The notes under the pieces are model-generated. The model searched no databases. It had not been told where the DNA came from and saw nothing but the letters and a program-made list of their open reading frames with translations. A DNA stretch of 20,256 nt from a virus. The stretch spans positions 1-20,256 of the IMG/VR virus record IMGVR_UViG_3300044825_000582, one strand, 5' to 3'. Made by a program: the position numbers and the translations under genes. Shown here piece after piece: positions 3-16,137 of this stretch (position 1 is the stretch's first letter; every line of letters begins with the position of its first letter).

Positions 3-857
3 GACGCTGCCGTCACGCCCAAGACCAAGGCCGTGATGATCGCTCACACGCTCGGCAATCCCTTCAATATGGAGGAGATCCGGGCGCTGTGCGACAAGCA
101 CAACCTGTGGCTGATCGAGGACTGCTGCGACGCGCTGGGCGCTACATGGCAGAACAAGTACGTCGGTACGTTCGGAGACTTGGCCACCCTGTCTTTCTTC
201 CCGGCACACCACATCACCATGGGCGAAGGCGGGGCGGTGATCATCAACAACACAAAGCTGACCCGTGCCGTGGAATCTACCCGCGACTGGGGCAGGGACT
301 GCTGGTGCGAGCCTGGCAGGGACAACACCTGCAAGCGCCGGTTTGAGCAGCAGCACGGCGAACTGCCCTACGGCTATGACCACAAGTACGTCTTCACCCA
401 TCTGGGCTACAACCTGAAGGTAACGGAGATGCAGGCCGCTTGTGGCGTGGCACAGCTGGAGCAGCTAGACATGTTCATCGCCCGTCGCCGGGAGAACTAC
501 GGCTACCTGCGTGAGCGGCTGGTGGATCACGAGGAGTTCTGGCTGCCGACCGTCTACCCGGACGCACATCCCAGTTGGTTCGGGTTCCCGATCACCCTGT
601 CGGGCGAGGCCAAGTTTACCCGGCAGGAGATCATCGACTGGCTGAACGGCCACAACATCGGCACCCGCCTGCTGTTTGCTGGAAACGTTACCAAGCAGCC
701 GTACATGGAAGGCCGCCAGTACCGTATCCATGGCGATCTGGAGTACACCGACTACGTGATGGAGAACACCTTCTGGGTGGGAGTTCAGCCAGCACTGACC
801 CGCGAGATGCTGACCTACGTGGCAGACACCATCGAGAGATTCTTGGAGGAGAGATGA
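3..857 (+). CDS. rfbH: CDP-4-keto-6-deoxy-D-glucose 3-dehydrase (E1, RfbH/DdhC/AscC type), 5'-truncated
   Basis: The reading frame is open from the first complete codon, so the true start lies upstream. About 150 residues are missing relative to the roughly 437-residue E1 enzymes. Numbering residues from the GTG at 33, the segment FFPAHHITMGEGG has His60 where aminotransferase-fold enzymes carry the PLP-binding Lys. That replacement is the hallmark of E1, which binds PMP and removes the C3 hydroxyl. Cys32, Cys90, Cys92 and Cys100 give exactly C-X57-C-X1-C-X7-C, the [2Fe-2S] ligand pattern of this family. The known product is a CDP-3,6-dideoxy-4-keto sugar, formed with a separate flavin/iron-sulphur reductase (E3) that is not in this window. 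The stop overlaps the next ATG by four bases (ATGA), indicating translational coupling. The assignment to E1 rather than a generic DegT aminotransferase is strong; the role in the phage is inferred. Confidence 0.93.
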   Translation, partial: DAAVTPKTKAVMIAHTLGNPFNMEEIRALCDKHNLWLIEDCCDALGATWQNKYVGTFGDLATLSFFPAHHITMGEGGAVIINNTKLTRAVESTRDWGRDCWCEPGRDNTCKRRFEQQHGELPYGYDHKYVFTHLGYNLKVTEMQAACGVAQLEQLDMFIARRRENYGYLRERLVDHEEFWLPTVYPDAHPSWFGFPITLSGEAKFTRQEIIDWLNGHNIGTRLLFAGNVTKQPYMEGRQYRIHGDLEYTDYVMENTFWVGVQPALTREMLTYVADTIERFLEER

Positions 858-1867
858 GAGTAGCTGACTGGATTGCAGACTACCTGTACAGCATAGGCGT
901 ACGCCGGGTGCACGGGCTGATGGGTGGCGGAGCGGCAGGGCTGAACGACGGCTTCATCAAGCACGGCGGCATAGAGTACATCTGCTACCACCACGAGCAG
1001 GGCGCTGGCCACGCAGCCATAGGCGAGGCTAAGTACTCAGGCAAGCTGGCCGTGGTCAACCCTACCACCGGGTGCGGGGGAACAAACTGCGCTACCAGTG
1101 TGCTTAACGCTTGGCAGGACGGAGTGCCAGTGCTGTTCCTGTCCGGCAACGTGCGCAAGGACACCTGTACGGCGCACATCAACAAAGAGAAAAAACTAGA
1201 GCTTCGGCACTACGGATTGCAAGAGCACGACATCACTAGAACCGTGAGGTCGATGACTAAGCTATCGTGGTTTGTCGATGATAAGCGGTATGTAAAACTC
1301 ATCCTACAGAAAGCTGTTCACGAGGCTATCTCAGGACGACCGGGGCCAGTGTGGGTAGACATCCCCATAGACATTCAGCAAGCTGAGATGCCGGAAGATC
1401 CGCTCAATTGGTACGGCCCTGCAACCATCCCAATTTATGACTTCAACCCCATGACCATCTGGCACGACATCAAGAATGCCAACCGCCCGATCATCTTGGC
1501 TGGCATGGGTATCCGGCAGTCTGGCTGCGTGGAACAATTTGTCCAGTTCGTCACCAAGTACGAGATCCCCTTCGTCACCAGCTACGGCGCACAGGATTAC
1601 TTGCCGTACGACCACCCGCTGAACATGGGAACCGTAGGCTCGCGTGGCACCAGGTTTGGAAACTTTGCCATGCAGAACGCTGACCTCCTGCTGATTCTTG
1701 GATCTTCCATGAACGCGGGCGTGATCGGCTACGATTCAAAGCAGTTCAGCCCTAAGAGCCGCAAGATCTACGTGGACATTGAACCTGACGAGCTGGCCAA
1801 GGACATCGTGCCGATAGACCACAAGATAACCATTTCGCTAGACAAATTCTTTGGAGCGATGCTATGA
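854..1867 (+). CDS. ThDP-dependent enzyme, PYR plus middle domain half (acetolactate synthase/YerE-like)
   Basis: This 337-residue protein starts at the ATG at 854, which follows GGAGGA at 845-850 and overlaps the upstream stop. Residues 1-160 are a ThDP PYR domain. Glu48 in YHHEQGAGHAA is the expected catalytic glutamate that activates the cofactor, and PTTGCGGTN (about 70-78) replaces the TSGPGATN usual in acetolactate synthase. That variant fits, from memory, ThDP enzymes of O-antigen clusters. Residues 190-325 match the central nucleotide-binding-type domain, with the GSRGTRF and late IDIEPDEL segments typical of it. There is no PP domain; that lies in the next gene. Next to an E1 dehydrase, the likely role is adding a two-carbon acetyl unit from pyruvate to a 4-keto sugar, as YerE does in yersiniose A synthesis. 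Substrate and flavin binding cannot be read from sequence. Confidence 0.85.
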   Translation: MRVADWIADYLYSIGVRRVHGLMGGGAAGLNDGFIKHGGIEYICYHHEQGAGHAAIGEAKYSGKLAVVNPTTGCGGTNCATSVLNAWQDGVPVLFLSGNVRKDTCTAHINKEKKLELRHYGLQEHDITRTVRSMTKLSWFVDDKRYVKLILQKAVHEAISGRPGPVWVDIPIDIQQAEMPEDPLNWYGPATIPIYDFNPMTIWHDIKNANRPIILAGMGIRQSGCVEQFVQFVTKYEIPFVTSYGAQDYLPYDHPLNMGTVGSRGTRFGNFAMQNADLLLILGSSMNAGVIGYDSKQFSPKSRKIYVDIEPDELAKDIVPIDHKITISLDKFFGAML

Positions 1868-2601
1868 CCAGACAAGAATGGATCGACAAGTGCAGCGATT
1901 GGAAAGCCAAGTGGCCTGTCATGCAGCCGGAGTATTTGGATGACACCAACGGCCTGAACATCTACGCCGTACTGGATGCCATCTATACCCACGCGCCGGA
2001 CGATGCCGTGTTCATGGCAGACGCAGGCACTGCTTATTACACGTTGCCGCAATCTGTTCGTATCCGGGCGCAGCAGCGTATCGTCATGAGCCAGTCGCAG
2101 GGAGACATGGGTTGGGCACTACCAGGCGCGATAGGCGTGGCAAAGGCAGGAGCAAAGAACGTCATCTGCATCGTGGGCGACGGTAGCTTCATGTCAAACA
2201 TGCAGGAGCTGGCAGTTATCCGTGAGCACAATCTGCCCATCAAGATCATCATCCTGAACAACCGTGGCTATCTCAGCATTAAGAACACGCAGGGCAAATT
2301 CTACGAGGGCAGGATTCATGGGGTAAACAAAGCTACCGGCGTGTGGTTTCCAGACATGGAAGAGGTTGCCAGCGTGTTTAAGATCAAGGTCGGACGAGCA
2401 TGGAGCATCAAGACTTTGGACAAGTATGTTGAGATGGCCATGAAGCAGACTGCGCCCTATCTTTTGGACTGCGTTTGCACGGAGGATCAGGTCATCATGC
2501 CCGCTCAGTCATTCAAGAAAGGCCAGCAAGCTCCTCTGCATGATATGTTCCCCTTCCTGTCCGACGAAGAACTGGCAGCAGAAATGGTGGTGCCGCTATG
2601 A
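1864..2601 (+). CDS. ThDP-dependent enzyme, PP (cofactor-binding) domain half
   Basis: This 245-residue protein carries the C-terminal third of an acetolactate-synthase-type enzyme. GDGSFM (residues 105-110) followed by LNN (131-133) is the classic GDG...NN motif that binds the diphosphate and Mg2+. GDMGWALPGAIG (80-91) is the helix before it. The N-terminal 20 residues (WIDKCSDWKAKW) look like the interdomain linker of fused homologues. With the upstream half the total is 582 residues, the normal length of a single-chain acetolactate synthase large subunit. The ATG at 1864 overlaps the preceding TGA (ATGA), with GGAG at 1853-1856, so the halves should be made in equal amounts and assemble. 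The frames differ by -1 and no slippery heptamer is visible at the junction, so reinitiation is more likely than frameshifting. Function depends on the partner; alone it lacks the catalytic Glu. Confidence 0.85.
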   Translation: MTRQEWIDKCSDWKAKWPVMQPEYLDDTNGLNIYAVLDAIYTHAPDDAVFMADAGTAYYTLPQSVRIRAQQRIVMSQSQGDMGWALPGAIGVAKAGAKNVICIVGDGSFMSNMQELAVIREHNLPIKIIILNNRGYLSIKNTQGKFYEGRIHGVNKATGVWFPDMEEVASVFKIKVGRAWSIKTLDKYVEMAMKQTAPYLLDCVCTEDQVIMPAQSFKKGQQAPLHDMFPFLSDEELAAEMVVPL

Positions 2602-3509
2602 AGATCGCCATCCTTGGAGCTACCAGCCAGATCGCCAAAGACCTGATCCTGTCCTTTAGCGACGAGCACGAGCTGGAGCTGTTCTCCCGCGAGGCCACTG
2701 CCATGGGCAGGTGGATGGTTGAACATAACTTGAACAATTACCACAGCCGCACGTACTTCGACTTCCCGGCAGTCAATGGCATAGACGCCATCATTAACTT
2801 CGTGGGTGCAGGCAACCCAGAGCGGGTCAAGAAGATGGGGGCAAACATCTTCAACATCACGGAGACCTTCGACCGCATGGCGATGGAGTATCTGGAGGAG
2901 AACAAGCACTGCCTGTACATCTTCCTGTCCAGCGGTGCTGCTTTCGGAGACAACTTTCAAACGCCCGCAGATACCCAGAAACACGCTGTCTTCCCCATCA
3001 ATAACATCCAGCCAGAGAACTACTACGGTCTGGCCAAGGCGATGGCGGAGGTGCGGCACCGCATGAGCGGCAGGAACATCATCGACCTGCGCCTGTTCAA
3101 TTACTTCAGCCACACCATGAGCCTGAAGCACCGGTTCATGATTACAGACATGATCCGGTCGATACAGGAGAAGAAGATATTCAAGGCCGACAGAACGCCG
3201 CTGGTACGTGACTACATCGGCCCGCTGGACTTCTACCAGATGATCAACGTCCTGCTGACCACGGACAACATCAACACCCCCATCGACTGCTACAGCCGCC
3301 AGCCAGTCAGTAAGGACACCCTGCTGGAGAAGATGGCGCACAGGTACGGGCTGGAGTATGAAACAGTTGGATACCCGGTAGGATTGCCGTCTACCGGCGT
3401 GAAGGAGAAATACTACTCCGTGAACACGGCAGCGTACGCTCTGGGTTACCGGCCTACGCTGACATCCTTGGAAACCATTTTCATCGCAACCGATAAGATC
3501 CTCAAATAA
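2598..3509 (+). CDS. Extended SDR NAD(P)-dependent sugar reductase/epimerase
   Basis: This 303-residue protein is a short-chain dehydrogenase/reductase of the extended, sugar-nucleotide type. The N-terminal Rossmann entry is MKIAILGATSQIAKDL, in which Gly7 is kept but the usual second and third glycines are replaced by Gln-Ile-Ala. SSGAAFG (111-117) supplies the serine region, and Tyr143-Gly-Leu-Ala-Lys147 is the catalytic YxxxK. The C-terminal half (VRDYIGPLDFYQMINVLL and after) is the substrate-binding part of NDP-sugar enzymes. It overlaps the ThDP PP-domain gene by four bases. By position it could be the YerF-like reductase that reduces the branched keto group after the ThDP enzyme acts. 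Epimerase or 4-ketoreductase activity cannot be distinguished from sequence. Its stop shares one base with the next start (TAATG), tying the sugar genes to the phage-type genes downstream. Confidence 0.82.
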   Translation: MKIAILGATSQIAKDLILSFSDEHELELFSREATAMGRWMVEHNLNNYHSRTYFDFPAVNGIDAIINFVGAGNPERVKKMGANIFNITETFDRMAMEYLEENKHCLYIFLSSGAAFGDNFQTPADTQKHAVFPINNIQPENYYGLAKAMAEVRHRMSGRNIIDLRLFNYFSHTMSLKHRFMITDMIRSIQEKKIFKADRTPLVRDYIGPLDFYQMINVLLTTDNINTPIDCYSRQPVSKDTLLEKMAHRYGLEYETVGYPVGLPSTGVKEKYYSVNTAAYALGYRPTLTSLETIFIATDKILK

Positions 3510-3718
3510 TGTGGTGCCCATCCTGCGACAAGAAAACCCTTGTTACTGACACCAGGCGGTATCGGGACATCTCAAACACGTTTGACTTCGTGCAGCGTCA
3601 GCGTGTCTGCAAGGAGTGCGACTTTAAGATGATGTCCATCGAGATACCGCAGGAGACATGGGAGAAGCACTACCGATTACCGAAGAAATATAGGACGGAC
3701 GATGGGCAAGAGCCTTAA
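3509..3718 (+). CDS. NrdR-like zinc-ribbon protein
   Basis: This 69-residue protein has a CPSC pair (Cys3, Cys6) and a CKEC pair (Cys34, Cys37) separated by 27 residues containing TRRYRD and RQRVCKEC. This closely follows the N-terminal zinc ribbon of the NrdR ribonucleotide reductase repressor (CPxC...RRRxCxxC..FTTFE). The ATP-cone domain that makes up the rest of NrdR is absent, so this is a free-standing ribbon. It may bind nucleic acid or act as an adaptor; regulation of nucleotide metabolism is only a guess. It is coupled to the SDR gene by TAATG and is overlapped by the next gene for 17 bases. The tail after residue 50 (EKHYRLPKKYRTDD) is basic and probably flexible. Confidence 0.7.
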   Translation: MWCPSCDKKTLVTDTRRYRDISNTFDFVQRQRVCKECDFKMMSIEIPQETWEKHYRLPKKYRTDDGQEP

Positions 3719-3989
3719 GGAGTACATGAACGAAGTAGCGCAGATCGGTTGCGTGATGTGTCATCACCTTGATCTCGGCTACACGCCTGCCGTTCTCCAC
3801 CATCCTCGGGACGCAGCAGGCGGGGCGCAGAAGGCTTCGGACTGGCTGGTGATACCCCTCTGTCCTGAACATCACGTTGGAAAGTCAGGCTACCATGGGT
3901 TAGGAAGCAGAGGGTTTTATACACGCTACAAGCTCACAGAGTGGGATCTCATGGCCATGACTATTGAGCGGCTGCATAACTCTTCTTAA
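3702..3989 (+). CDS. Ref/HNH-like phage recombination nuclease
   Basis: This 95-residue protein has an HNH/treble-clef-like pattern: Cys17-x2-Cys20, His33-His34, then PLCPEHHVG with Cys54, His57 and His58, and finally SGYHGLGSRGFYTRY. This matches the phage P1 Ref family (RecA-dependent nuclease) and related small phage HNH proteins, where HH, PLCxxHH and a late HG-R motif form the metal site. The order helix, CxxC, HH, PLCxxHH fits well. The start at 3702 preserves the helix before the CxxC. An in-frame ATG at 3726 has a better Shine-Dalgarno (AAGGAG, 3717-3722) but only a 3-base spacer. Likely role: DNA nicking or cutting during phage recombination or replication. It ends the plus-strand unit and overlaps the 3' end of the convergent polyvalent gene by 29 bases. 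Confidence 0.72.
   Translation: MGKSLKEYMNEVAQIGCVMCHHLDLGYTPAVLHHPRDAAGGAQKASDWLVIPLCPEHHVGKSGYHGLGSRGFYTRYKLTEWDLMAMTIERLHNSS
3717..3722 (+). promoter_or_regulatory. Alternative ribosome binding site inside the Ref-like gene
   Basis: AAGGAG lies 3 bases before an in-frame ATG at 3726, giving an 87-residue form that starts after the zinc-ribbon stop. The 3702 start instead has only a weak GGA-rich stretch at 3693-3699. Ref-like relatives usually keep a helix before the CxxC, which favours 3702, but this site makes the shorter form plausible. Confidence 0.4.
3949..3960. repeat. Perfect 12-base palindrome at the convergence point
   Basis: TCATGGCCATGA reads the same on both strands and sits directly against the stop codon of the minus-strand polyvalent gene (3961-3963), within the Ref-like coding region. 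It has no loop and no T-run, so it is not an obvious intrinsic terminator. It may be chance, a protein site, or a by-product of codon choice (Leu-Met-Ala-Met). Confidence 0.3.
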
Positions 3990-6900
3990 CTGCCAGCCTA
4001 GCCTCCTCCATCTGGCGGGCAATCTCACCGATCAACACCTTCAGCCGATCGATCTCTTCCTTCTTCTGAGCGCCAGACATCTGCTCGTCGTTGCGGATAG
4101 CCTGGATTGCCTGCCGTACCTTAGCCATATCCTTAGACGCATTGTCGTAGAACTTGGCCATGGCAATCTTGTCGCCCTTTTCCTTCAGGATCTCCTGCAC
4201 CTTGTCTGCCTGACCTAACTGGGCGAAGTGGCGCATGTCGGCGTAGGCTTGGCTGATCTCCTTGTTGTTCTCGTAGAACGCAGTGACGTACTTGGACTGC
4301 GTGGCCGGCAACGTTTTTATGAACCCTGCCGACATGGTTTCCGTCCAGTTGTTGTCCGGGTATGCAGACTTTTTAAACGGCATGACCGCGTAGTTAGACA
4401 ACCAAGATGCGGTGCTTCCTAGCCAGCCAAAGTACGACTTGATCGTGTAATCCGCTTGGACAGGAGAAAGCTCGGCGGAAGTTGGCAGGAAAACATTTGA
4501 CACCTCTGAAAGCGCAATGGCAAGCGGGCTGGTTTTCTCTGCAAGACGCTCTGCCTTTGACAGTCGCTCCATGCCGGCAGTCTCGATCGGCGCACCGGTA
4601 AAGCTATCCTTGTTAGAGTAAAGGTCAACCAAGGGCTTGAACGCTTGTGGCATCGGATTGATGGCGAAAGTGTCGAACAACATCCGTGCCAAGCTGTCTC
4701 GGAATACCTTGCCCTCCGCGCCTTGGTCAATTATTTGCTCTGCAACACGCTCCGCCATAGTGCCAAACGCACCCAGCTCAAATGGCTTGGGGATCCTAAA
4801 GGCAGCATCCATACCTGGAAGCTTGATCCACCAGAAGTTGTCGCGGTCCCACTGCTCGCGCTTCTTGAACTCGTCATCGTCCTTGAACGCAAGGTAAAGT
4901 GACAACGATGCCAACGCAACAGCAGCCATGATGTACGAGAACTTTTCTGCCCTGATCTTGTCGTTCTCAGTAATTTTTTCCTGATTGCCAGTAACCACGT
5001 TGTAGAACACACGGCTGGTAGGAATAATGCCGTCACGGCCGAGCTTGTACAAACCCTGCACACGGGCGTTGAGGAACGGTACTACTTGCGTTAGGAACCT
5101 AAACGTTGGCCACGCACCCTGCATTGAGAAGTCCAGCATATCTCTTGCATAGAAAGATGCTTGAAGGTGGCTGTAGCCTTTTTCCTTGAGCTGGTTATAC
5201 AACGCCATGCGGTTGGCCGCTTCTGACTTGTTTCCCCAATCTTGATACCTGTCCCACATAAATGCCAAAGCTTTTTTGACCTTCTCTGGTGAGTCAAGAA
5301 TAGTGTCGCCCTTAACTCCTTTATCCAGAAGGCGCTTGATAAGCTTTGCTTGGTCCCCTTCATAGTACGATCCAAAGTTGAAGATCGCGCCGCCAGCCAG
5401 TGCAGAGATATGCGCAGGATTGTTCCTGTCAGATGCGGCCCAACCATCAAGCACGTTGGCAAAAGGGTTGCGTTTCAAATCGGTCACGGCCAACGCAGAC
5501 ACAGAATCACGGATGAGGTTACGAATCTTGAAGGCCGGTGATATGGTCACACCAAACTGCAACATGTTTTTGAAGTCACGAGCCACCATCGTAAACTTGG
5601 ACTTTGGACCCATGTAACCAATCGACATAATGGACTCAAGCAGTAGCTTGTCCTTGATGTCAAAGTAAGTTGGTTGGCCGTCACGCATTACTTTGATAAG
5701 GCCCTTGCGGTCGCTAGTCGTGTACTCACCGCGCAGCACGCCATCACCACCAGCCAGACCAGCGTACAAACCTTCTATCAGCGAATCCTTTTTCTGGTCG
5801 GATATATCTTCCCTTTCCATGATCGCATCAACGTAAGGTTTCATCACGCCGTCAATCTTCTTTTTCTTCTGCGCGTCTGTTAGCTTATCGTCATCATTTA
5901 TCCTGTCGATAGTTGCCATTCTTTTCGTGGCATAAACTTTTCCATCAATCCAGGATAGTCCTGATTTCAGGTTTGGAAACGCTTCATTCAAGCGCATAGC
6001 TGCATTGACAGTTGCGTTTGCTGCCTCGTTCTTCATGGACGCAGACAGGATGTGGCTCCAGTTGCGCAGGGTGTTTTCCATCAGATCACCAAACGGCTTC
6101 TCTCCACCCTCTAGTGCTTTTGAGAAGTACTGGTTAATCAGACCAGAGTTGGTTGCGGCAGACTGAACATCACCATCTTCATCGATGACCTTGTAGAAAG
6201 GTATGTAGTTGATGTCCCTTGAAAATATGTTGAACGCCTTCCTGTCAATAAGCCCTTGGTCTAGGGCAATCTTGAGCACGGAGCGGTTCAGATTGTTCAT
6301 GTCTTTCTGAACCTGGCGATAAACCTCTAGCCTGCTCTTGTTGCCAATCATCCCTTTGGAAAGCTCGTTGCGTTTTTCAACCAACTTGGCATTTACAGAC
6401 GGAGCTTTACCTTGACGCACGAGCTGCGCATCGCGGTTCAAGGCAACCCAGATCTGGTAACGATCAACCTCGTTGCCAACAGGTTCCAGCGCCTTCAATA
6501 GACCTTTGGTGTCTTTGGCAATATCCAACGCGCCGTCAGTCAGCTTGACCTCACCGTTGAACAACAGGCCCTCTAAAGCGCCATCCACGGTCTTGGACAT
6601 GCGGGCTTTCATGTAAGCCTCTTCGTCAATATCTTTGATAGAGCGATACTGATCGGCTATACCCTGCGCCAACTTTTGCCAAAAGTCGTTGCGCATACCA
6701 TCTATCTTGTCGATGATGGTTTTCTTTTCTGGGGCGAATACGGGCTTTAACGCATCGTAGTACTCGTCGGATACGCCATCGAACTGGCTCTTTGGCAGCT
6801 TGCGCGGCTGGATAGCAGCCTTGGCCGCTTGCTTGGCTTGCTCAACACGGCTAGGCTTGCCGGCCTGCTCGAACAGACTGCCTTGTACGGCCTCACCCAC

Positions 6901-9849
6901 GCCAGGTTTGACACCAAAGCTGTACTGCTTGGCTATGATCTTGTCGCCAACTACGTCCACATCCTCATCCAAGATAGACTCTGTGGTCTTAACCAGCTGG
7001 TCCAAGGCCGTGAGGTACGGCTTGGTAACGTTCAGGATCTTGCGGATCAACTCCACAAGCTTGTCCATGATGGTCTGATCGCCAACCTTTATCTCGCTCA
7101 GGAACTCCTGCATCTCCTTGTCAGCGATACCCCACGCCAGTAGCTCGTCCGGGCTAGACAGCGCGTTGATTTCTTGGGCGTACATCTTCTCCATGATTGG
7201 AGTAAGACGGCCAGCACGCACCTCAGTATTGAAGTGCGTTACCACCTTGTTGAACAGGTCGCGCAGATCCTTAACCAGCGGATCGCTGCCCTTCAAGACG
7301 TTGATCTGGCCGACAGTGGCTACGTGCAACAGCTCGTGCAGAACCGTGATATATCGCGCACCCGGAGGATAGCCGCCTTGATTGTCCATAACAGCCGCGC
7401 CGTTGATGGTCATCTTGAACGCAGGCTGCTTACCCTCACCCGGCCGGCCAAAGTCAAACTCAACCAAACCGCGAGCGTTGTACATTTTTACCGGGCGCTG
7501 CTGGCCAGATGCAACATCAAACTCCATCTTGATGCCGCGCTTGGCCATGCCGTTCAAGCGGTTCGACACCTTCTGTGCAATCGCCTTAGCAAACTGGTTG
7601 GGTGCGTTATCAACAGCCCACTGCGCTACCTGCAACATGGACTTGCCGGTCAGCTCTTTCTCTATGCGCTCGTGCTCTGGATCTTTGTTGATGACAAATT
7701 TTTCTCTTTGCGCAAGAGTGCTTTTAATTATGTTTATGCCATCAATATCATTTTTTGAAACAATTGCTTTGATTGTTTTTTGGCCGCGCAGTTTTGCTGC
7801 CTCAAGGCGATGGCTACCATCAACAACCACCCACTTTCCAGTTGCATCATCAGGCGAAACAACATCAATAGGCGGCAACTCGGTTGGCCTGTTGGCATAC
7901 TCTTTAATTAAATTTTTTGCCCCAGGGAAGCTAAGTTTGCCTCCGGGTGTAGCGCTTTCACCGTGTTCAATTTGATCGATTGGTATATCTACAACATAGT
8001 TTCCTTCTTTATCAATCTTGGCTGTTTCTGCTAATCTTCCGCGCAACTCTTCTTGATCCGGGAAGTACTCTTCCTCTACCGGTTCTTCTGGGATTGTTTC
8101 GAAAACTCTAGCAGGTGGCTCAAGACCTCCAACCTCTCCTTCGGGGGCAACTCCCGCAGTTTCTTGATCAATTGCTCTCTGCTCATCGAACGCTTCTTGG
8201 AAGAGTCTGTTGGCAAGTTCTTCATCTGCAAATTCCCGGTAAGAAGACTCTATGTCAGCAAGCGATGTGCCGATTTCTGTGAGCCTGTTGTTGGTTTCCC
8301 ATGTAAGGTAGTTGCGCTGGCGTAGTTGATCTTTGATGTACTCATCTGCCTCTTTTGCACGAGTAAGTACATCGCCTTCCATACGGGCAAGATCTGTTTC
8401 TTGACCTTTAATAATTTGCAGCTCTGGTGGCAACCATGGATTTAATGAACCATCGGCCGCAAGTTCAGATATGGACTTACCCGGCATGCCTCTAGGCGCG
8501 CGCAGGCCGGCAAAGCTCTTATCTCCAAGTTCAGCCAAGTCAGACTGCGTAAGATTGCCTTGTATGGCAGACCAAAGACTTTTGCCTTTTTCACCACGCA
8601 TCAGCTTGTTGCGCTCTGCTACCAACGCCTTCTCGTCTTCGGCCATCTGCTCTTTTTGAGCTGCAATCTCTGGCGGTTCTGGTGCCGGCTCGCCAGAAAC
8701 AAATTCAGCTTCCGGTACGGGCGGGGCTTCAGCTCTGGCACGGATAGCTTCTTCGTCTGCACGACGTTGCATTTCCTCTGCGCTTGGCCCAGTAGGAACT
8801 GGCGCGGTGGGTTGTTCTGTAACGGCGGTTGCGCCAACTTCCGCAGGTTTTTCCTCTCGTGGTAACGTTTCCACGAGCGGGCGACGGGATAGTCCAGCAG
8901 CGGTACCCAAACCTAATCCGCCGACAGCCGCCATACCCATGGTTTCGCCCAGCCCCTCGGTCAAGCTACGGGTGGGATCTACCTGCTGCATGGCCAAGTT
9001 CTGCGCTACCTTGCCGCCGCCTTCTTCAATCATCTCACTGACGGTCTCTCCAGCGCCACCCTTGACCGCGCCCATCAGGCGACTTCCCTTGCCCGGCACC
9101 TTCGCCATGGCTTCTTCAATCGCGCGACCGCCCGGCAGTTTCTGTGCCAGCGCAGATATCACAGTAGCCGCAGCTCCCGTAGCCCGCGCATAACCCAGCG
9201 CACGCCCGGCAGCCTCTTCTTCCGGCACGCCTTGTTTGACCAGTTCCTTGTACAGCTGCTCGTAGGAACCAGCGCCGATGTCAGCACCTTGCTGGACAGC
9301 GCCAGTGCCGATCGCACCACGCACAGCGCCGACAGTCATGCCGGCAGCGGACAAGCCACGGGCAACGGCAAAACCGGGGATAAGGTTGGGAGCTTGTTCT
9401 GCGATGAAGTTGGACAGCAGAGCCGGATCCTTGATGGTCTCCATGAACGCCGTGACGCCAGCAGATACTTGGCCCTCTTTGCCTGCCTCTGCAATCTTTG
9501 CCGCACGCTCTGCCTCACGTTGCTTCAAAGCTTCAGACTTCATGCCCTCGCCAGTCTCGCGCAGCTCACGCCCAATCTTGGTCAGTCCAGTGTCGGAGAA
9601 ATCGCCGGTGGCTAGGCCGTACAGTTGGCCAGGAAGCTGGGCAAGCGCGCCCACGCCAGATACCGCGCCAGCACCAATATCCTTGGCGGCTTCCAGCATC
9701 GTGCGTTCTTTGGGGCCGGCAGCAGGCTGTGGCGCAGGCTGGGTAGCCATGGCCTGACGGAGAGCATCAGCCAGAGCCTGGGCGGCCTGTGCATCTCCCG
9801 CGTTGTGTGCGTTTAGAAAGGCTCGCTCAAGCTCTTGTACTGTTGCCAT
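3961..9849 (-). CDS. Giant polyvalent/ejection protein with ParB-like, zincin and LPD38-like regions
   Basis: This 1962-residue protein is the largest in the window and the last gene of the late operon. Residues 50-320 are Gly/Ala-rich with amphipathic and hydrophobic stretches; 325-400 are Pro/Glu-rich linker. Residues 600-715 look like a ParB/Srx-fold domain, with VVVDGSHRLEAAKLRG (674-689) as the conserved core. Residues 830-920 hold His838-Glu-Leu-Leu-His842, an HExxH zinc-protease motif, followed by DELLAWGIADKEMQEFL, the usual downstream pattern in phage zincins. Residues 1020-1300 and 1430-1610 (KIRNLIRDSV, DFSMQGAWP, VVPFLNARVQGLYK) resemble polyvalent-protein domain LPD38. A membrane-like segment lies at 1638-1655. 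Such proteins are thought to be delivered with phage or plasmid DNA. The start abuts the upstream stop (TAAATG) with GGCGGACGA before it. Domain calls are from motif memory; ejection is inferred from size, position and content. Confidence 0.8.
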   Translation of the reverse strand: MATVQELERAFLNAHNAGDAQAAQALADALRQAMATQPAPQPAAGPKERTMLEAAKDIGAGAVSGVGALAQLPGQLYGLATGDFSDTGLTKIGRELRETGEGMKSEALKQREAERAAKIAEAGKEGQVSAGVTAFMETIKDPALLSNFIAEQAPNLIPGFAVARGLSAAGMTVGAVRGAIGTGAVQQGADIGAGSYEQLYKELVKQGVPEEEAAGRALGYARATGAAATVISALAQKLPGGRAIEEAMAKVPGKGSRLMGAVKGGAGETVSEMIEEGGGKVAQNLAMQQVDPTRSLTEGLGETMGMAAVGGLGLGTAAGLSRRPLVETLPREEKPAEVGATAVTEQPTAPVPTGPSAEEMQRRADEEAIRARAEAPPVPEAEFVSGEPAPEPPEIAAQKEQMAEDEKALVAERNKLMRGEKGKSLWSAIQGNLTQSDLAELGDKSFAGLRAPRGMPGKSISELAADGSLNPWLPPELQIIKGQETDLARMEGDVLTRAKEADEYIKDQLRQRNYLTWETNNRLTEIGTSLADIESSYREFADEELANRLFQEAFDEQRAIDQETAGVAPEGEVGGLEPPARVFETIPEEPVEEEYFPDQEELRGRLAETAKIDKEGNYVVDIPIDQIEHGESATPGGKLSFPGAKNLIKEYANRPTELPPIDVVSPDDATGKWVVVDGSHRLEAAKLRGQKTIKAIVSKNDIDGINIIKSTLAQREKFVINKDPEHERIEKELTGKSMLQVAQWAVDNAPNQFAKAIAQKVSNRLNGMAKRGIKMEFDVASGQQRPVKMYNARGLVEFDFGRPGEGKQPAFKMTINGAAVMDNQGGYPPGARYITVLHELLHVATVGQINVLKGSDPLVKDLRDLFNKVVTHFNTEVRAGRLTPIMEKMYAQEINALSSPDELLAWGIADKEMQEFLSEIKVGDQTIMDKLVELIRKILNVTKPYLTALDQLVKTTESILDEDVDVVGDKIIAKQYSFGVKPGVGEAVQGSLFEQAGKPSRVEQAKQAAKAAIQPRKLPKSQFDGVSDEYYDALKPVFAPEKKTIIDKIDGMRNDFWQKLAQGIADQYRSIKDIDEEAYMKARMSKTVDGALEGLLFNGEVKLTDGALDIAKDTKGLLKALEPVGNEVDRYQIWVALNRDAQLVRQGKAPSVNAKLVEKRNELSKGMIGNKSRLEVYRQVQKDMNNLNRSVLKIALDQGLIDRKAFNIFSRDINYIPFYKVIDEDGDVQSAATNSGLINQYFSKALEGGEKPFGDLMENTLRNWSHILSASMKNEAANATVNAAMRLNEAFPNLKSGLSWIDGKVYATKRMATIDRINDDDKLTDAQKKKKIDGVMKPYVDAIMEREDISDQKKDSLIEGLYAGLAGGDGVLRGEYTTSDRKGLIKVMRDGQPTYFDIKDKLLLESIMSIGYMGPKSKFTMVARDFKNMLQFGVTISPAFKIRNLIRDSVSALAVTDLKRNPFANVLDGWAASDRNNPAHISALAGGAIFNFGSYYEGDQAKLIKRLLDKGVKGDTILDSPEKVKKALAFMWDRYQDWGNKSEAANRMALYNQLKEKGYSHLQASFYARDMLDFSMQGAWPTFRFLTQVVPFLNARVQGLYKLGRDGIIPTSRVFYNVVTGNQEKITENDKIRAEKFSYIMAAVALASLSLYLAFKDDDEFKKREQWDRDNFWWIKLPGMDAAFRIPKPFELGAFGTMAERVAEQIIDQGAEGKVFRDSLARMLFDTFAINPMPQAFKPLVDLYSNKDSFTGAPIETAGMERLSKAERLAEKTSPLAIALSEVSNVFLPTSAELSPVQADYTIKSYFGWLGSTASWLSNYAVMPFKKSAYPDNNWTETMSAGFIKTLPATQSKYVTAFYENNKEISQAYADMRHFAQLGQADKVQEILKEKGDKIAMAKFYDNASKDMAKVRQAIQAIRNDEQMSGAQKKEEIDRLKVLIGEIARQMEEARLAVKKSYAAAQ

Positions 9850-11196
9850 TTATCGTCCGCCGTACTGTTGCAGTGCTTTCTGTGCTTCTGGGCTAAGTTT
9901 GAATGGATTGGGCGTTGATGTTGGAGCCTTGACCGTAGCCCTTGGATCAGATGCCATCATATCCAACGCCAGTCGTTTCTTTTCTTCTATCGACTTGGCG
10001 GCATTCATGGGGTCGTTTGCGATGATCTTGAACGCCTCTTCGTATGACATCACGTTCTGAGGCTTAGGACCACCACGAACTGCCTCAAGCTCTCCCATAA
10101 ATTTAGCGGCAGCCTCCGGACCTTGTTTAGCCAAGATGTCGTGATATCTGCCAAGCAGTCGCTCAGTTTCACCCGGCCGATTGGCTGACATGGCATGAAT
10201 ACGGGCTGCCGCCAGTTGATACTCGCCGCTAGTCTTGGCAACTTCCAACGATCTCTTTGCGTTCTCGTCGATGCCGTACTTGGTGATGAACAAGTCAGAT
10301 GCTTTTTCAGCAGCCTTGTTGTACTGATCAGTCTGGCGCATTTGCAGATCTTCCAGCTTGTCCCGCTTGGCTTGCACACGACCCAAAACTTTGCCGGACG
10401 CATCACGCTTGGCGCGATCCTCTGCAAACATCAGCTCACGCTCTGTTTTCTTGATGTCCTTCTCGGTATCGCGGATCTCACGCAACGCGCCACTGTATTG
10501 CTGCACCGCCTGACGGCCAACACCAGCCAAAGTCTCAAACTCCTGACCTCTGCGCGCGCCCATCAGACCCAGACCAGCCATCAGCAGCGCCTCACCCTTG
10601 GCTTCCTCGCGGCGGCCTTTCAGTTCCTCACGACGGCCAGCCTCTTCCTCACGCATACGCTTGTACAGATCTGTGTCTACACCAGCCTCGCGCTCTGCCT
10701 CACGCTGCAACGCCATCTCAGACTTGATGTCCGTAGGCTTGGGCATGTCGTACTGACGGAACCTGAAGCCACCTGGCAAAGTAAGGCCATCATCTCTGCC
10801 CATCCCTGCCAGCGCAGCGTTGGCCTCGCGGTTGGCGCGGATCATATCCTCTGGCGTGCCGCCGTCTGCAAACGCAACGATGCCGCCGCCTGCCATGTTC
10901 TGCAATCCCGACGGTAATCCTGCCACGCCCGGGCTGGGCTGTGGAGCGCCCGGAGCCGCCATGATTCCTGCCTGTGCGGTTGTGGGCATCTCTGGTGCCA
11001 GCACATCCTCGGCCACGGTAGTCTGCGGAGGCTGCATCGCTGACTTGGCAATCCGATCGATCATCATGCCGGCCATCAGCGCGCGCTGCGGATCCAGCAT
11101 GCCCATCTTCACCATCCGGGCAAGATCCTGCTTGCTGTACTTTGTAGCCAGCTCACGGACTTCATCTATCCGCATCCCGAAGTCATCGCGCTTCAT
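9850..11196 (-). CDS. Putative internal virion protein (coiled coil, Gly-rich motif)
   Basis: I do not recognise a named family with certainty. Starting at the ATG at 11196 the protein has 448 residues; AAGG lies 9 bases upstream. A TTG at 11202 would add two residues and overlap the upstream stop. The N-terminus (MKRDDFGMRIDEVRELA) is helical and charged. Residues 101-113, MAGGGIVAFADGG, carry a short Gly-rich hydrophobic motif that recurs in two neighbouring proteins. Residues 165-335 are rich in Glu, Lys, Arg and Ala and should form long helices or coiled coil. The tail is Pro-rich and ends QQYGGR. Lying between a Gln-rich protein and the giant polyvalent protein, it corresponds by order to T7 gp15, but I see no sequence match to gp15. 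Confidence 0.6.
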   Translation of the reverse strand: MKRDDFGMRIDEVRELATKYSKQDLARMVKMGMLDPQRALMAGMMIDRIAKSAMQPPQTTVAEDVLAPEMPTTAQAGIMAAPGAPQPSPGVAGLPSGLQNMAGGGIVAFADGGTPEDMIRANREANAALAGMGRDDGLTLPGGFRFRQYDMPKPTDIKSEMALQREAEREAGVDTDLYKRMREEEAGRREELKGRREEAKGEALLMAGLGLMGARRGQEFETLAGVGRQAVQQYSGALREIRDTEKDIKKTERELMFAEDRAKRDASGKVLGRVQAKRDKLEDLQMRQTDQYNKAAEKASDLFITKYGIDENAKRSLEVAKTSGEYQLAAARIHAMSANRPGETERLLGRYHDILAKQGPEAAAKFMGELEAVRGGPKPQNVMSYEEAFKIIANDPMNAAKSIEEKKRLALDMMASDPRATVKAPTSTPNPFKLSPEAQKALQQYGGR

Positions 11197-11198
11197 GA

Positions 11199-12302
11199 TC
11201 AACCTTTCGAGAGATGTTCAACTGCCAGATCTGCCAGACCGCCGCCAGCAAACAACTTGCTCGCGCCGTACAGCGCCGTACCCATACCGGCCAACTGTGC
11301 CGTGGTGGACGGAGGTGCCTGATAGATAGCCTGCGTGGTCTGCTGCGGCACACCCTTCAACATTTCCTGCATGAACGCAAGTTGCTGGTAAGGGTACTGC
11401 TTCTGTTGCAAGAAGTCTTCGTACTGGCGGGTAAGCTGTGCCTGCTGGAGAGCCTGACGCTGCTGGCCGGCACCTTGCAGTGCGTTGATAATCGCCTGCT
11501 GCTGTTGCATCTGCTCTTGCCCCAGAGCGCCCAGCCCCTGTGCCGCCTGTAGCTGTGTCTGCAAACCCTGCATGGTCAGACCGGCGCCATACTGACGCGA
11601 CTGCTCTGCCTGCTGCTGTGCTGCCAGCGCGCGCTGCGCCTCTGTGCCGTACAGATTCTGTGCCTGCTCGTATGCCGCTTGCAAGCCTGCCTTCTGAATA
11701 TCTGCTTTCTGCTGGGCAAGGTTCTTCGCTGCCTCTGCCTCAAGGATTGCCTGACGACTACCACCGTACGCGCCACGGCCAACAGCCTGTGCCTTTAACT
11801 GCTGGCCAGCAATGTCAGCCTGACGCTGTGCCTCGCGCTGCTGGATGTCAATAACGTTCTGGGCGTAGGGCGACATGTACAAGCCCGCTAGTCCTGGAGT
11901 GGTAAAGCTTGCGGTACCAAACTGCTGCGGCTGGTACTGGACATCACCTGCTTTCAGGCCGGCCGAGGTAGCAAACTGACTGGCAGTACCAAGCTGTTGA
12001 GATGGGCCAAGGTTTGCCACAGCCTGCTGGGCAGTCAGTTGGAACGGGTCAAACCCAGCGATACGCTCACCCCGGTACGCCGTGTACGGGCTGGATGCTT
12101 CAGCCATCGCACGCTGCGCGGTCTCGTAGACCATCGGCTTGAACTCTGCCGGATAGGACAGGTTAGTGACAGTCTGGCTGGTGGGCTGACTGCTTGCGCC
12201 GCCGCTGTCATACAGACGGATCTTGCCGCCCTCTGCCTTAAAAGCACCTAGATCGCCGGGGATAAACCCAGCTTCCATCATTCCGAAAGATATACGGCTC
12301 AT
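11199..12302 (-). CDS. Putative internal virion protein, Gln/Ala-rich
   Basis: This 367-residue protein belongs by pattern to a family common in marine and freshwater phages but without a defined function. The recognisable core is LYMSPYAQNVIDIQQREAQR (141-160) followed by GRGAYGGSRQAI (175-186). Residues 155-310 are strikingly rich in Gln and Ala with heptad-like spacing, which suggests long helices and assembly inside the capsid or tail. The C-terminus ends with FAGGGLADLAVEHLSKG, the same Gly-rich motif seen in both neighbours. The ATG overlaps the stop of the GNAT-like gene by four bases. By order it occupies the place of T7 gp14. Structural identity is likely; the precise role in DNA ejection is inferred. 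Confidence 0.62.
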   Translation of the reverse strand: MSRISFGMMEAGFIPGDLGAFKAEGGKIRLYDSGGASSQPTSQTVTNLSYPAEFKPMVYETAQRAMAEASSPYTAYRGERIAGFDPFQLTAQQAVANLGPSQQLGTASQFATSAGLKAGDVQYQPQQFGTASFTTPGLAGLYMSPYAQNVIDIQQREAQRQADIAGQQLKAQAVGRGAYGGSRQAILEAEAAKNLAQQKADIQKAGLQAAYEQAQNLYGTEAQRALAAQQQAEQSRQYGAGLTMQGLQTQLQAAQGLGALGQEQMQQQQAIINALQGAGQQRQALQQAQLTRQYEDFLQQKQYPYQQLAFMQEMLKGVPQQTTQAIYQAPPSTTAQLAGMGTALYGASKLFAGGGLADLAVEHLSKG

Positions 12303-12742
12303 AGTAGCCCCTGCTCAAAAAATCTTTGGTACGTCACGCTCTGCGCTGTGTAGCCGTACTTCTCAGCGTGCTTTTTCCATCCCGGCCTGCCGACAAACTC
12401 AATGCCCTTGCAGCCAGCCCCCAACGCATAGTTCTCCGCATACTGCTGCATCAGCGCCTCTATCTCAGCCATGTAATTCGGGATCATGGCCGCGTACTGA
12501 ATGACCAGCATCTTGAACTGCGGATACTGCTTGACCTCTGTGATGAAGTGACCGTGCGCCTCCTTGGTCTCATCATCGAATACCACCCATAGCTGCATCT
12601 CGCCCGTGAACAGGAAGCGCAGGATATCGTCCACGCTTGCCCGGCCACGACTGCGATTAGCCGACTCCACCAAATACGGCATGATCGCCGGGATCGTACC
12701 GGCTATCGCACCGTACGGTATTAGTGCGATGTCCAGCTTCAT
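12299..12742 (-). CDS. GNAT-fold acetyltransferase-like phage protein
   Basis: This 147-residue protein fits the GNAT fold. Strand-like segments MQLWVVFDD (49-57), AHGHFITEV (62-70) and KMLVIQYAAM (77-86) are followed by a helix (90-108) and the late strand-turn-helix GCKGIEFVGRPGWKKHAEKYG (110-130). The acetyl-CoA binding signature (R/Q-x-x-G-x-G/A) is not clear, so activity may be lost. Small GNAT-like proteins sit among virion genes in podoviruses, and T7 gp13 has been placed in the acetyltransferase-fold clan as I recall. It overlaps both neighbours by four bases, so it is made with the structural proteins. It is either a virion or assembly factor or an enzyme modifying a host or phage protein; I favour the former. 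Confidence 0.62.
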   Translation of the reverse strand: MKLDIALIPYGAIAGTIPAIMPYLVESANRSRGRASVDDILRFLFTGEMQLWVVFDDETKEAHGHFITEVKQYPQFKMLVIQYAAMIPNYMAEIEALMQQYAENYALGAGCKGIEFVGRPGWKKHAEKYGYTAQSVTYQRFFEQGLL

Positions 12743-15700
12743 GCAGGAAGCAGTTTTCTAGCTTTTGCGTCCACCGCTACCTTGTTTTTGCCAACAGTCT
12801 TGCCTCTTGCTCGTTGAATACGATCCATCATGGCGTACAACTCACGTGCACCGGCATCCGTGGAACCGTTACCAAGCTCGGACACAATGCGCGCCGGTAT
12901 TACAAATTCACCATCAGCAAGACGAGCAGGCTGCCTGCCGCCAATAGAAGCAGGAATTGAATCACTAACTCCATCGCCAGGTCCTTTCAGTAAACGGCCG
13001 CCGTCCGAGTAATCTCCCAGATGGTAGCCACCGCCTGCATAACCACCGCCCGCCATCTGCGTTACGCCCTGTTGCTGTTGTGCGCGCAGGGCGGCCATGA
13101 CTGCCTCCAGCGATTGCGGCGTGCCTTGTGCGGGAGCGCCGTACGGTTGGAAGCCAAACACGTTCTGAGGCTGCTGTGCTTGGAACTGCAAGCCGGTCTG
13201 CAACTGGGGCGCTTTCTCTGCTGCCTGCGTGGCTAGTGTCTGCAATCCCATCTGCTCGGTAAACGTCGGATTCAGCGGCATAGCGCCTTCCAACGTCACA
13301 GCACCACGGGTCAGCGGAGCCTGTAATCCCGATGGCGTAGGCTGCACGCCGCCAGTAATAGCACCCAAACCAGTTGCTGCCGGTTGAGTTGGCGTGTACT
13401 CCAGCACTGTGCCCGGAGCGTAACGCGGAGCAGATGGTGTTGGAATCAGCGGTTGGGTCAGCTTGCCAAGGTACTCTTCCGATCCTTTCAGCATTCCTTC
13501 CAAACCTTGTGGCGTCTGCTGTGCGCCCATATACTTGCGCAGCTCTTCCATGCTGGGCGTGCGGCCAAGAACATCGCGGTAGGCCGTAGATACCTGCTCC
13601 GGTGTCAGCGATGCCGACAGTCTCTGCTGCTCTGCCAGCGCTTCTTCCGCAGTCTTCTGCTGCTGCGTGAACGCCTGCTGGGCTACCGTGTTCAGGTTCT
13701 TCAAGTATGCAGGTTGCTGTTGCAGGAAGTTGCGCATCTGGTTGAAGTTGGTAATCTTCGCCTTCTTCATCGCAGCCAGCTCACCGCCGGTAGGCTCACG
13801 GCCAATGTAGTACTGGAAGTTTTCCTTGAAGTCATCATCCGTGTACTTAACCGCAGCCTTAACATCAGGCTGGTTCATGGCAAACTGAGCAATAGCTGCA
13901 TCAGTGCTTTGTGTGCCGAGGAACCTGTCCATCTCTGCCGCAGTCGGACGACGGCCAGCCACATCCTCAAAGACAGCTGTGATGTCTTTTTCTTCCATCA
14001 AGCGCTTGGTAGTGTCGTAGCCCGGAACCTTCGTGAACGCCTTGAACTCTGTGATGGGCGGAGCTTCTGACGACGGGATCAGCTTGCCGGTCTTCGGATC
14101 CTTGATGTAAGCAGGCGTGTAACCAGCCATGCCGGACTTAAGCTCATCAATCTGCTTCTGAATCTCTGCTGCTTGCGGGATTGGAGAACCCATTGGGCCG
14201 GTACCCAAGGATGCCTTCTGTCTTTCCAGCTCTGCAATTTTTGCAGAGTTATCTCCACCCAAAGACTTTGTAGTTGTCTGCGGGCGAATGGCTTGAATGC
14301 CGGTAGCCTTACGGCCAGTCTCTTCCTGCCATGCCTGTTTCTCTGCTGCCAGCGCATCCTTGTACTCGTTGTACTTGCCCATCGCTGCTTCATACTGCTC
14401 GTTGGCCTTGGCGGTCGCCGCCTCGTTCGCAGCAATCATCTTGTCTCTGGCAGCAACAGCATCCTGATATTGCTTGGCCATGGCGGCGGCACTCTTGGCA
14501 GGAGTTGCCTCTTTGTTCAAAGAAGCTATGCGGGTATCGAAGTCTTTGACAGATGCAGAGTAATCTTTCTTGAAGTTGTTGTACTCGGCCTGACGGTTCT
14601 TGATGGCGTCAGCAAATTCAGTGTTTACACCAGCAATCGTGGACTTTTGCTCGCGCTGGATCTCAGCGATGGCTGCCTGTTTCTCTTTCGCCGGACGCCC
14701 TCTGTCAGCCTGAATCTCTTTGATGCGATTGGCAAACTCGGAGTTCAGCTCCTTCAGGCGGTTAGCCTTGTCCTTGTTGATCTGCGCAACAGCGGCGTTG
14801 TACTCCTTCGCAGCATTGGCCGATTCAGCGGCGCGATTGGTCTTCTGCTGCTGCAATTCCTTGATCTGGTTCTGCAAGTCGTTGTACCGACCCTGCACTT
14901 CCTCAATGTTGCTGTACTTCTCAAGACTGGCAATCTTCTTGTCGATCGCAGATGTGCTTTGCAGCTTGGGCGCAGCTTTCTTCGGCTCTGCCACAGCCTT
15001 CAGCTTGGAAATAAATCCACCTGTCGCCAACGCCGCAAGACCGCCGCCTGCAAACTTCTGCTCGCCGGTGTATGGGTCAACCGACTGATAGTCCATCGGC
15101 TTGATGACGTTCTGCGATATCGGATTATTACGTGGCACAGCGTAGCCGTACGGCTTGATACGAGCCATGGGGTAATTCTGGTTGCCGCCTGTCATGTTCT
15201 CTTGTGACATGCGGGCGACAGGAAGATCTGCCAAGCCACCATCAGCAAAGTAGCGACGCTCGCCGGTCATGCTTGGATATGCGCCTGCCTGATACTGACC
15301 GCCAGACTGAGCGATGCGATTGTAGGTAGGGTTGAATGTTGTGTAGCCACCCTGTTCCTGCGGCATCTTCTGCTCTTCGCGGGATAGTGACAGCGCAGCC
15401 AGACCAGCACCCATTAGCGGGAACTTCTGTTCCTTTAAGAATGCGTCACGGTATGCCTTGTCTTCTTCTGATGAACCAAACAATCTGCCAACGTTTTGGC
15501 CGGCACTCTTCAATCTCTGGCCAATGCTGGACTCCACGGTTGCCGGAGCTGTAGTTGCAGGCGCGCCAGCAGGAGCAGTGGACACAACCGGTTGAGCTGG
15601 GACTGGCGGGGTAAATGCGGTTCCTGCAACCGGTGCACCAGCAGCAGTAATACCGGCAGCGGGAGCAGCGGCAGTTACCGGTGGCACAACCGTTGGCATT

Positions 15701-16137
15701 GTAAAAGGAGTTCCGCCAGCAAACGTAGTAGGAGCTGCGGCAGCAGAAGCAGCAGCCGGAGCAGCAGAACTGGCAGCAGCGGCAGGAGCCAAGCCTAGCC
15801 CAGCACCGAGACTAGCGCCACCATAAGCGCCCAGCCCCATCATCAAGCCTTTGTTCAGGCTGCCAGTGGCAACAGTTCCAGCAGCGCCCACCATCAGTGC
15901 CGCCATAGGAGCGCCTACGCCCGTAGCCGTCAGCGCAGCACCAGCCACCATCGGGAGGATGGACGACAGAAAACCCGCTTCCGGCAGGCCGGTCTCAGGG
16001 TTAATGGTAAGACTTCCACCGTGCGCCATGGCCAGAGACTGCAAGCCGCTGACCTCGCCTGGGGTCATATGAACGAGAACTTTGTCCTCGCCTCTACCGG
16101 CGCTTTGGAGGTGTTGGGCTAGGGTGTGCAGGCTCAT
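12739..16137 (-). CDS. Large structural protein: coiled coil, DUF4214-like repeats, conserved C-terminal module
   Basis: This 1132-residue protein starts at the ATG at 16137 with GAAGG upstream. The N-terminus has VHMTPGEVSGLQSLAMAHGG (22-41), a motif I associate with phage virion proteins, then Gly/Ala-rich hydrophobic sequence (55-120) and an Ala/Pro-rich linker (117-200). Gly-rich motifs FADGGLADL (297-305) and FAGGGLAALATGG (362-374) follow. Residues 393-600 are a long Lys/Glu/Gln/Ala helix or coiled coil. Three related helical units at 719-759, 770-811 and 849-890 share GRxP...E and resemble DUF4214. A conserved C-terminal module (1050-1113) contains GPGDGVSDSIPA, ARLADGEFVIPA and GNGSTDAGARELYAMMDR. 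The layout suggests a tape-measure-like, tail-interior or internal core protein. There is no TM-helix-rich tape-measure signature, so the exact role is uncertain. Confidence 0.68.
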   Translation of the reverse strand: MSLHTLAQHLQSAGRGEDKVLVHMTPGEVSGLQSLAMAHGGSLTINPETGLPEAGFLSSILPMVAGAALTATGVGAPMAALMVGAAGTVATGSLNKGLMMGLGAYGGASLGAGLGLAPAAAASSAAPAAASAAAAPTTFAGGTPFTMPTVVPPVTAAAPAAGITAAGAPVAGTAFTPPVPAQPVVSTAPAGAPATTAPATVESSIGQRLKSAGQNVGRLFGSSEEDKAYRDAFLKEQKFPLMGAGLAALSLSREEQKMPQEQGGYTTFNPTYNRIAQSGGQYQAGAYPSMTGERRYFADGGLADLPVARMSQENMTGGNQNYPMARIKPYGYAVPRNNPISQNVIKPMDYQSVDPYTGEQKFAGGGLAALATGGFISKLKAVAEPKKAAPKLQSTSAIDKKIASLEKYSNIEEVQGRYNDLQNQIKELQQQKTNRAAESANAAKEYNAAVAQINKDKANRLKELNSEFANRIKEIQADRGRPAKEKQAAIAEIQREQKSTIAGVNTEFADAIKNRQAEYNNFKKDYSASVKDFDTRIASLNKEATPAKSAAAMAKQYQDAVAARDKMIAANEAATAKANEQYEAAMGKYNEYKDALAAEKQAWQEETGRKATGIQAIRPQTTTKSLGGDNSAKIAELERQKASLGTGPMGSPIPQAAEIQKQIDELKSGMAGYTPAYIKDPKTGKLIPSSEAPPITEFKAFTKVPGYDTTKRLMEEKDITAVFEDVAGRRPTAAEMDRFLGTQSTDAAIAQFAMNQPDVKAAVKYTDDDFKENFQYYIGREPTGGELAAMKKAKITNFNQMRNFLQQQPAYLKNLNTVAQQAFTQQQKTAEEALAEQQRLSASLTPEQVSTAYRDVLGRTPSMEELRKYMGAQQTPQGLEGMLKGSEEYLGKLTQPLIPTPSAPRYAPGTVLEYTPTQPAATGLGAITGGVQPTPSGLQAPLTRGAVTLEGAMPLNPTFTEQMGLQTLATQAAEKAPQLQTGLQFQAQQPQNVFGFQPYGAPAQGTPQSLEAVMAALRAQQQQGVTQMAGGGYAGGGYHLGDYSDGGRLLKGPGDGVSDSIPASIGGRQPARLADGEFVIPARIVSELGNGSTDAGARELYAMMDRIQRARGKTVGKNKVAVDAKARKLLPA
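15731..15790. repeat. Low-complexity GCAGCA-type tract encoding Ala-rich linker
   Basis: The stretch is an imperfect run of GCAG/GCAGCA units, encoding the alanine-rich part (about residues 117-136) of the 1132-residue protein on the minus strand. It is the most repetitive DNA in the window. Copy-number variation here would only change linker length, because the unit is in frame. Confidence 0.5.

Follow-up and report, generated by a model that had tools for sequence, protein, structure and literature searches.

A short glycine-rich motif shared by predicted ejection-module proteins in a viral genome fragment

Phages are known to make ejection proteins as well as tape measure proteins. Both kinds diverge fast, such that their common parts are hard to see, and a short motif that survives in them is a handle for searches. 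The T4 capsid-targeting sequence ends in a site for the phage-encoded prohead protease, and FG-repeat or sticker motifs are short hydrophobic and glycine units set in disordered spacers. In phage P22, the ejection proteins depend on the scaffolding protein for procapsid entry according to the text of PMC8402733 on that step, which is a precedent for docking. Here, we describe a motif with the core [FMYL]-A-x-G-G in three unrelated proteins, p1132, p367 and p450, of the virus record IMGVR_UViG_3300044825_000582 in IMG/VR. The window analyzed is the complete record, a genome fragment of 20,256 bases. The shared motif appears to be undescribed; in the open-access literature, with subscription papers mostly outside it, we found no description of such a motif or of a podophage-like ejection-module protein with a C-terminus of tape-measure type. 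Searches with its exact peptide strings returned chance matches only, and the conservation section of a review of ejection proteins (PMC8954989) does not mention it.

Motif copies in the window and among relatives

The three proteins are encoded on the minus strand, p1132 at 12739..16137, p367 at 11199..12302 and p450 at 9850..11202. The first-pass annotation, made from the sequence of the window, had listed FADGGLADL at residue 297, FAGGGLAAL at 362 and MAGGGYAGG at 1028 of p1132, FAGGGLADLA at 351 of p367, and MAGGGIVAFADGG of p450. All of these copies were found; only the numbering of the p450 copy shifts, from residue 101 to 103, as our open reading frame (ORF) begins with a TTG that lies two codons ahead of the ATG. 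This hallmark copy (residues 103-115, 10858..10896, minus strand) is a tandem with the copies 8 residues apart, at a predicted local distance difference test score (pLDDT) below 50. The p367 copy, FAGGGLADL, lies near the C-terminus (residues 351-359, 11226..11252, minus strand; pLDDT <50 at 352-356). In p1132, also on the minus strand, there are FADGGLADL at residues 297-305 (15223..15249), a tandem with a spacing of 8 residues at 362-374 (FAGGGLAALATGG; 15016..15054), a tandem with a spacing of 5 residues at 1028-1037 (MAGGGYAGGG; 13027..13056), and MAHGG at 37-41 (16015..16029), which sits in a conserved N-terminal block and may belong to a folded domain. Four of these copies are additions to the earlier list: the tandem FADGG at residue 111 of p450, and LATGG 370, YAGGG 1033 and MAHGG 37 of p1132. 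The three proteins had been called consecutive, which is not strictly the case, since p147 (12299-12742, minus strand), without a copy, separates p1132 from p367.

The narrow form [FM]A[GD]GG occurs six times in the three window proteins versus about 0.02 expected from shuffles of the same proteins. With 2000 shuffles each, the copies seen and expected were 3 and 0.011 for p1132, 2 and 0.007 for p450, and 1 and 0.006 for p367, and the observed count was matched in 0, 0 and 12 shuffles, respectively. None of the 10 remaining window proteins carries it, among them an ORF for a thiamine pyrophosphate (TPP) enzyme that was checked by eye. The motif is best formulated as [FMYL]-A-x-G-G-[LIV]-[AV]-x-[LF], with the core given above.

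Family counts were made on 103 loci from scans with p367 and p1132 (the second scan being the best 80 of 344), on the window, and on 14 further stretches that belong to three complete-sized relatives, Synechococcus phage MinM2, Caulobacter phage RW and phage DSL-LC04; genes were taken as the longest ORF, exact duplicates were dropped, and the rest was de-duplicated by shared 4-mers. In the p1132 family, [FMYLW]AxGG occurs 242 times in 70 of 73 members (shuffled mean 20.4, maximum 36), a count that takes in the conserved N-terminal MAHGG slot, the residue table without that slot holding 208 distinct contexts. The p450 family has 65 copies in 37 of 39 members (shuffled mean 3.7, maximum 7), the p367 family 24 in 24 of 44 (mean 5.9, maximum 14), fusions of p367 and p450 20 in 10 of 10 (mean 2.8, maximum 9), and the head C-tag proteins described below 12 in 5 of 8 (mean 0.3, maximum 2). 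No copy was found in the 44 members of the p711 family or the 47 of the p460 family, which are neighboring structural proteins. The remaining proteins held 17 copies in 16 of 822 (shuffled mean 25.3, maximum 35), some of these carriers being p450 relatives (L030, L105, L118) or head proteins missed by the profiles. Equal frequency in non-virion proteins, which would have told against a common function, was therefore not seen; the motif is strongly enriched in the three families and their fusions and at or below chance in other proteins. A separate feature, the poly-glycine matches of tail fibers (YAGGGGGG), was set aside as its own class of 38 de-duplicated proteins.

In p450, the best-conserved 9-residue window of the entire protein is the motif itself, residues 103-111 (MAGGGIVAF), at 3.38 bits versus a mean of 1.44 in 38 homologues. 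These homologues were not selected by the motif; the alignment had 63, and the 25 that came from motif-pattern loci were left out. The motif is thus conserved in homologues, where a lack of conservation would also have argued against a shared function. The p450 model has helices at residues 12-56 and a long helix of 118 residues at 221-338, and MAGGGIVAF lies between the N-terminal helical part and this long helix in a linker of pLDDT below 50, such that the stretch is probably disordered. A short conserved stretch inside a low-confidence linker is a typical sign of a short linear motif. The protein itself is an unnamed member of the putative ejection module: Pfam, NCBIfam and, at E<=0.1, PHROGs gave no family for it, and its model has no Foldseek match at E<=0.001. 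A search of solved structures by sequence gave no meaningful match with any of p367, p450 and the C-terminus of p1132.

A degenerate DNA pattern of 27 bases for [FMIL]AxGGIVAF met at least 80 loci in viral contigs. Among the 80 matches listed, 65 fall in a p450 profile match or a p367-p450 fusion, 12 are without a profile match yet on a contig with other module genes, and three are unrelated; the profile applied here includes the motif, and weak matches of a locus to it may be motif-driven. For 77 of the 80 loci listed, the pattern alone was thus enough to reach a single unnamed gene or the region around it. Among 12 complete-sized relatives, it occurs exactly once in each of seven, and the reversed pattern in none. 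Similar copies are encoded by differing synonymous codons, so conservation is at the amino-acid and not the DNA level, and recent copying of a DNA segment between genes is ruled out. Successive copies are spaced by 8 residues in 22 of 28 pairs in p450 and in 15 of 172 in p1132, where another 14 pairs have a spacing of 5.

The p1132 C-terminus, head-region proteins and gene neighborhood

Judged by its sequence, the C-terminus of p1132 is a module of tape-measure type. Residues 1043-1132 (12742..13011, minus strand) read YSDGG-GPGDGVSDSIPA-ADGEFV and contain the GxGxSDSIPA and GEFV elements, and one set of p1132 copies precedes this module, which is also found in siphophage tape measure proteins. 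The 90 C-terminal residues gave weak tblastn matches in 467 phage records, and 47 of the 60 listed are labeled tape measure; just three PHROGs were matched at E<=10, and all of them (E 0.04-0.1) are families of tail length tape measure proteins. In a profile comparison, the module matched the tape measure protein of Nitrincola phage 1M3-16, a phage chosen from those tblastn matches (95.9% probability, E 6e-9, 44 columns at 50% identity). With lambda gpH, direct comparison of profiles gave a weak match (15.5%, E 0.0017), located at GEFV between two motif copies; HK97 gp16 and P22 gp16 gave no match. Upstream of the module, p1132 has a conserved N-terminal end and a variable middle: of 68 relatives, about 80-90% can be aligned over residues 1-200 and 1000-1132 and about 30% over residues 400-800, and the 35 intact members of the family range from 437 to 1522 residues. 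The middle has stretches resembling DUF4214 by eye, and its repeats vary by relative, with DUF4214 in one (L100, E 1.4e-22), ALTTAQ in another (L065), and pentapeptide-like repeats.

For p367, the profile match (E 2.5e-16) is to phrog_4287, a family of DNA ejection proteins, and comparison of its fold returned long-helix matches only (best Z 8.3), which is not informative. Natural fusions of p367 and p450 homologues, 812-983 residues long, are found at ten loci (L058, L076, L078, L081, L082, L084, L097, L099, L103 and L104), and most of them retain two copies of the motif, one close to where the two parts join and the other at the p450 slot.

In three relatives of 60 kb each, small basic proteins encoded in the head region carry the motif as well, in the form K[KR][FM]AxGG, and several of these proteins end in a second common tag, SSRxDGxAxRGKTxGxxx. 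The tag was seen in eight proteins, and in six of them the chain stops three residues past TxG. It lies at L109:17024-19880, L110:2796-4927 and L114:14519-16806, where each genome has it in two or three head-region proteins that otherwise differ in sequence, and MinM2 has a variant. We found no description of this tag in the literature, where strings of it matched by chance only. The ejection-module and head-region clusters hold most motif copies in these three genomes, the remainder being mainly in glycine-rich fiber proteins.

In order of transcription, the minus-strand genes of the window encode the M15 endolysin p154, p711, p460, p1132, p147, p367, p450 and p1962. By profile matches, p711 and p460 are virion structural proteins (PHROGs 3287 and 1645, respectively). 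The giant last gene of the module, p1962 (3961..9849, minus strand), has LPD38, a ParB-like stretch and an N-terminus like that of virion RNA polymerases, and is without the motif. A comparable gene order is found in the cultured phages MinM2, RW and DSL-LC04, the last with this cluster annotated as M15 peptidase, stabilization protein, tail tape measure protein and DNA transfer protein. Among the genes of complete-sized relatives are those for large terminase, portal, GroES, an adaptor of SU10 type and a gpT-like capsid protein; in partial scans of relatives with the SU10 adaptor, portal and gpT-like capsid protein, no tail tube was seen. From gene order and profile matches, p1132, p367 and p450 are likely virion proteins, and together with p1962 they would form the ejection module of a short-tailed phage. 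Positions 3-3509, adjacent to the virion genes and on the opposite strand, hold genes of sugar-nucleotide type (a DegT aminotransferase, the TPP enzyme in two ORFs and an epimerase), and one relative (G003) has the same gene families; positions 3702-3989 encode a protein of a RecA-dependent nuclease family.

Proposed docking and the alternative explanations

The motif is restricted to few protein families, occupies fixed slots, is often doubled at a distance of 8 residues, and lies in low-confidence stretches of p450 and p367. The proposal that it gives three unrelated proteins a common role is well supported by the enrichment in their families and the conservation in homologues, and both tests that could have refuted it failed to do so. 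As to which role, our leading, still tentative, explanation is a short linear docking or assembly motif of head-interior or ejected phage proteins. Each copy might form a short strand-turn-strand, with x-G-G as the turn and hydrophobic residues on either side, and the copies could dock onto one common partner during assembly, be it the scaffold, the portal interior or another ejection protein. Several weak contacts would then recruit and hold flexible proteins and let go as the DNA leaves. Of the processing site, docking peptide and membrane-active patch suggested by the first-pass annotation, the docking peptide fits best with a conserved short stretch that is low-confidence and probably disordered, multivalent, and partly common to head-region proteins; the other two did not fare as well, as described below.

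Several points weigh against docking. The partner is hypothetical, and docking itself is what we infer. The motif is absent from P22 gp7, gp20 and gp16 and from T7 gp14, gp15 and gp16, and homologues of p1962, which are probably also ejected, show no enrichment (3 copies in 30 members; shuffled mean 7.9). The p367 copy is hardly above the rest of the protein in conservation (1.88 versus 1.72 bits), is present in just 24 of 44 de-duplicated members, and is missing in the p367 homologues of MinM2 and RW. Disorder was taken from low pLDDT in two models, of which that of p367 is poor (mean pLDDT 61.6).

The strongest rival is a processing site, because motifs shared among head proteins can be protease sites, as in SPN3US, and because TP901-1 Tal and P22 gp7 are cut. 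A protease would cleave at or beside x-G-G during head maturation and so remove about 100 N-terminal residues of p450, a short tail of p367 and parts of p1132. In the accounts of cleavage given by the respective papers, SPN3US gp245 cleaves nine head proteins after AXE, some at multiple sites (PMC10052503), the host OpdA cuts P22 gp7 right before KGGKG (PMC8402733), TP901-1 Tal undergoes proteolysis in a stretch rich in glycine (PMC11409707), and the lambda tape measure protein and T5 pb2 are cleaved (PMC10038345). The copy near the p367-p450 junction in most fusions would also suit a cut. However, Peptidase_S78, Clp and S49 were each found in none of the 12 complete-sized relatives although the positive controls were detected; C48 was found in 0 of 12, with a control that gave no signal, and among the 25 listed of 45 Pfam families in the 54 proteins of one relative there is no protease but the M15 endolysin. 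The x position is unconstrained, tandem copies 8 residues apart are odd for a single cut, and conservation runs on to IVAF. We therefore consider processing unlikely.

The motif could instead be a structural turn without a partner, x-G-G acting as a turn or hinge that joins helices or strands and is favored in long flexible proteins that have to pass through a narrow channel. Copies do adjoin predicted helices, and Gly-Gly is suitable for a hinge, but a hinge needs neither [FMYL]A before it nor IVAF after it, nor top conservation in p450, and the motif is missing from p1962 and p711, which are likewise long proteins of these phages. We hold this explanation to be unlikely as well. A membrane-active patch that enters the host envelope upon ejection seems very unlikely: MAGGGIVAF does resemble a short fusion peptide, and a hydrophobic stretch of the T5 tape measure protein is proposed as a channel former in the text of PMC10038345 that deals with it, yet none of 343 motif sites lies within a 19-residue window of hydropathy >=1.6, and the mean hydropathy of the 9-mers is only 0.64 in p450, 0.22 in p367, 0.38 in p1132 and 0.02 in head C-tag proteins. 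Least credible of all is a by-product of glycine- and alanine-rich composition and common descent with no common function. In its favor, the motif is inherited in homologous slots and p1132 is Ala- and Gly-rich by eye; against it, composition-preserving shuffles are exceeded many fold, three unrelated families, fusions and head proteins all carry the motif, and synonymous codons differ.

Comparison with known systems

With ejection proteins of P22 and T7 type, the locus shares a cluster downstream of a tail or stabilization gene, a last gene that is large and DNA-transfer-like, and a recognizable member of the DNA ejection family phrog_4287 in p367. It differs in the motif, found in 0 of 3 P22 and 0 of 3 T7 proteins, and in the additional tape-measure-like p1132 ahead of these proteins. 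The T4 capsid-targeting sequence and the SPN3US AXE sites are alike in that one short motif is spread across unrelated head-interior proteins. AXE, however, is the site of a phage-encoded prohead protease in the SPN3US account (PMC10052503), whereas no protease of a known family was found here and the motif is internal and repeated. The likeness to FG-repeat or sticker motifs is by analogy, as the copies here are few per protein, in fixed slots and built on an A-x-G-G core.

The tape measure proteins of siphophages are alike in that [FYL]AxGG stands ahead of a GxG-SDSIPA/GEFV module, and often behind it too, as seen in lambda gpH, N15 gp16, TM4 gp17 and the Nitrincola 1M3-16 protein; they differ in that the gene order here is podophage-like, with an SU10-type adaptor in relatives. 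Among eight tape measure proteins picked by name, lambda gpH and N15 gp16 have two copies each and TM4 gp17 three, counts reached by 1.6%, 1.2% and 0.6% of shuffles, respectively, and those of HK97, D29, Mu, P2 and TP901-1 (5 of the 8) have none. In lambda gpH (733-790) and N15 gp16 (716-770), the two copies flank GEFV, although these phages are related and hence not independent. In the lambda virion as described in the tail-tip portion of PMC10721106, gpH helix 818-842 sits on the gpI plug, and the upstream motif region is outside the model. The HK97 homologue of this tail-tip plug (L249:13834-14442) has FAAGGLTGF and YAFGGVTNT, in a phage whose tape measure protein is without the motif.

A broader proposal, which we regard as doubtful, is that [FYML]AxGG serves as a general address or cohesion tag for the proteins that travel in front of phage DNA. 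Podophage ejection proteins, head-interior proteins of the same virions and siphophage tape measure proteins, lambda gpH among them, would use this single code, and a conserved partner or the tagged proteins themselves would read it; p1132 would then be a tape measure protein re-used in a short-tailed phage. The motif is a concrete target for studying the loading of flexible proteins into heads and tails, and since lambda gpH carries two copies, its role is directly testable in lambda.

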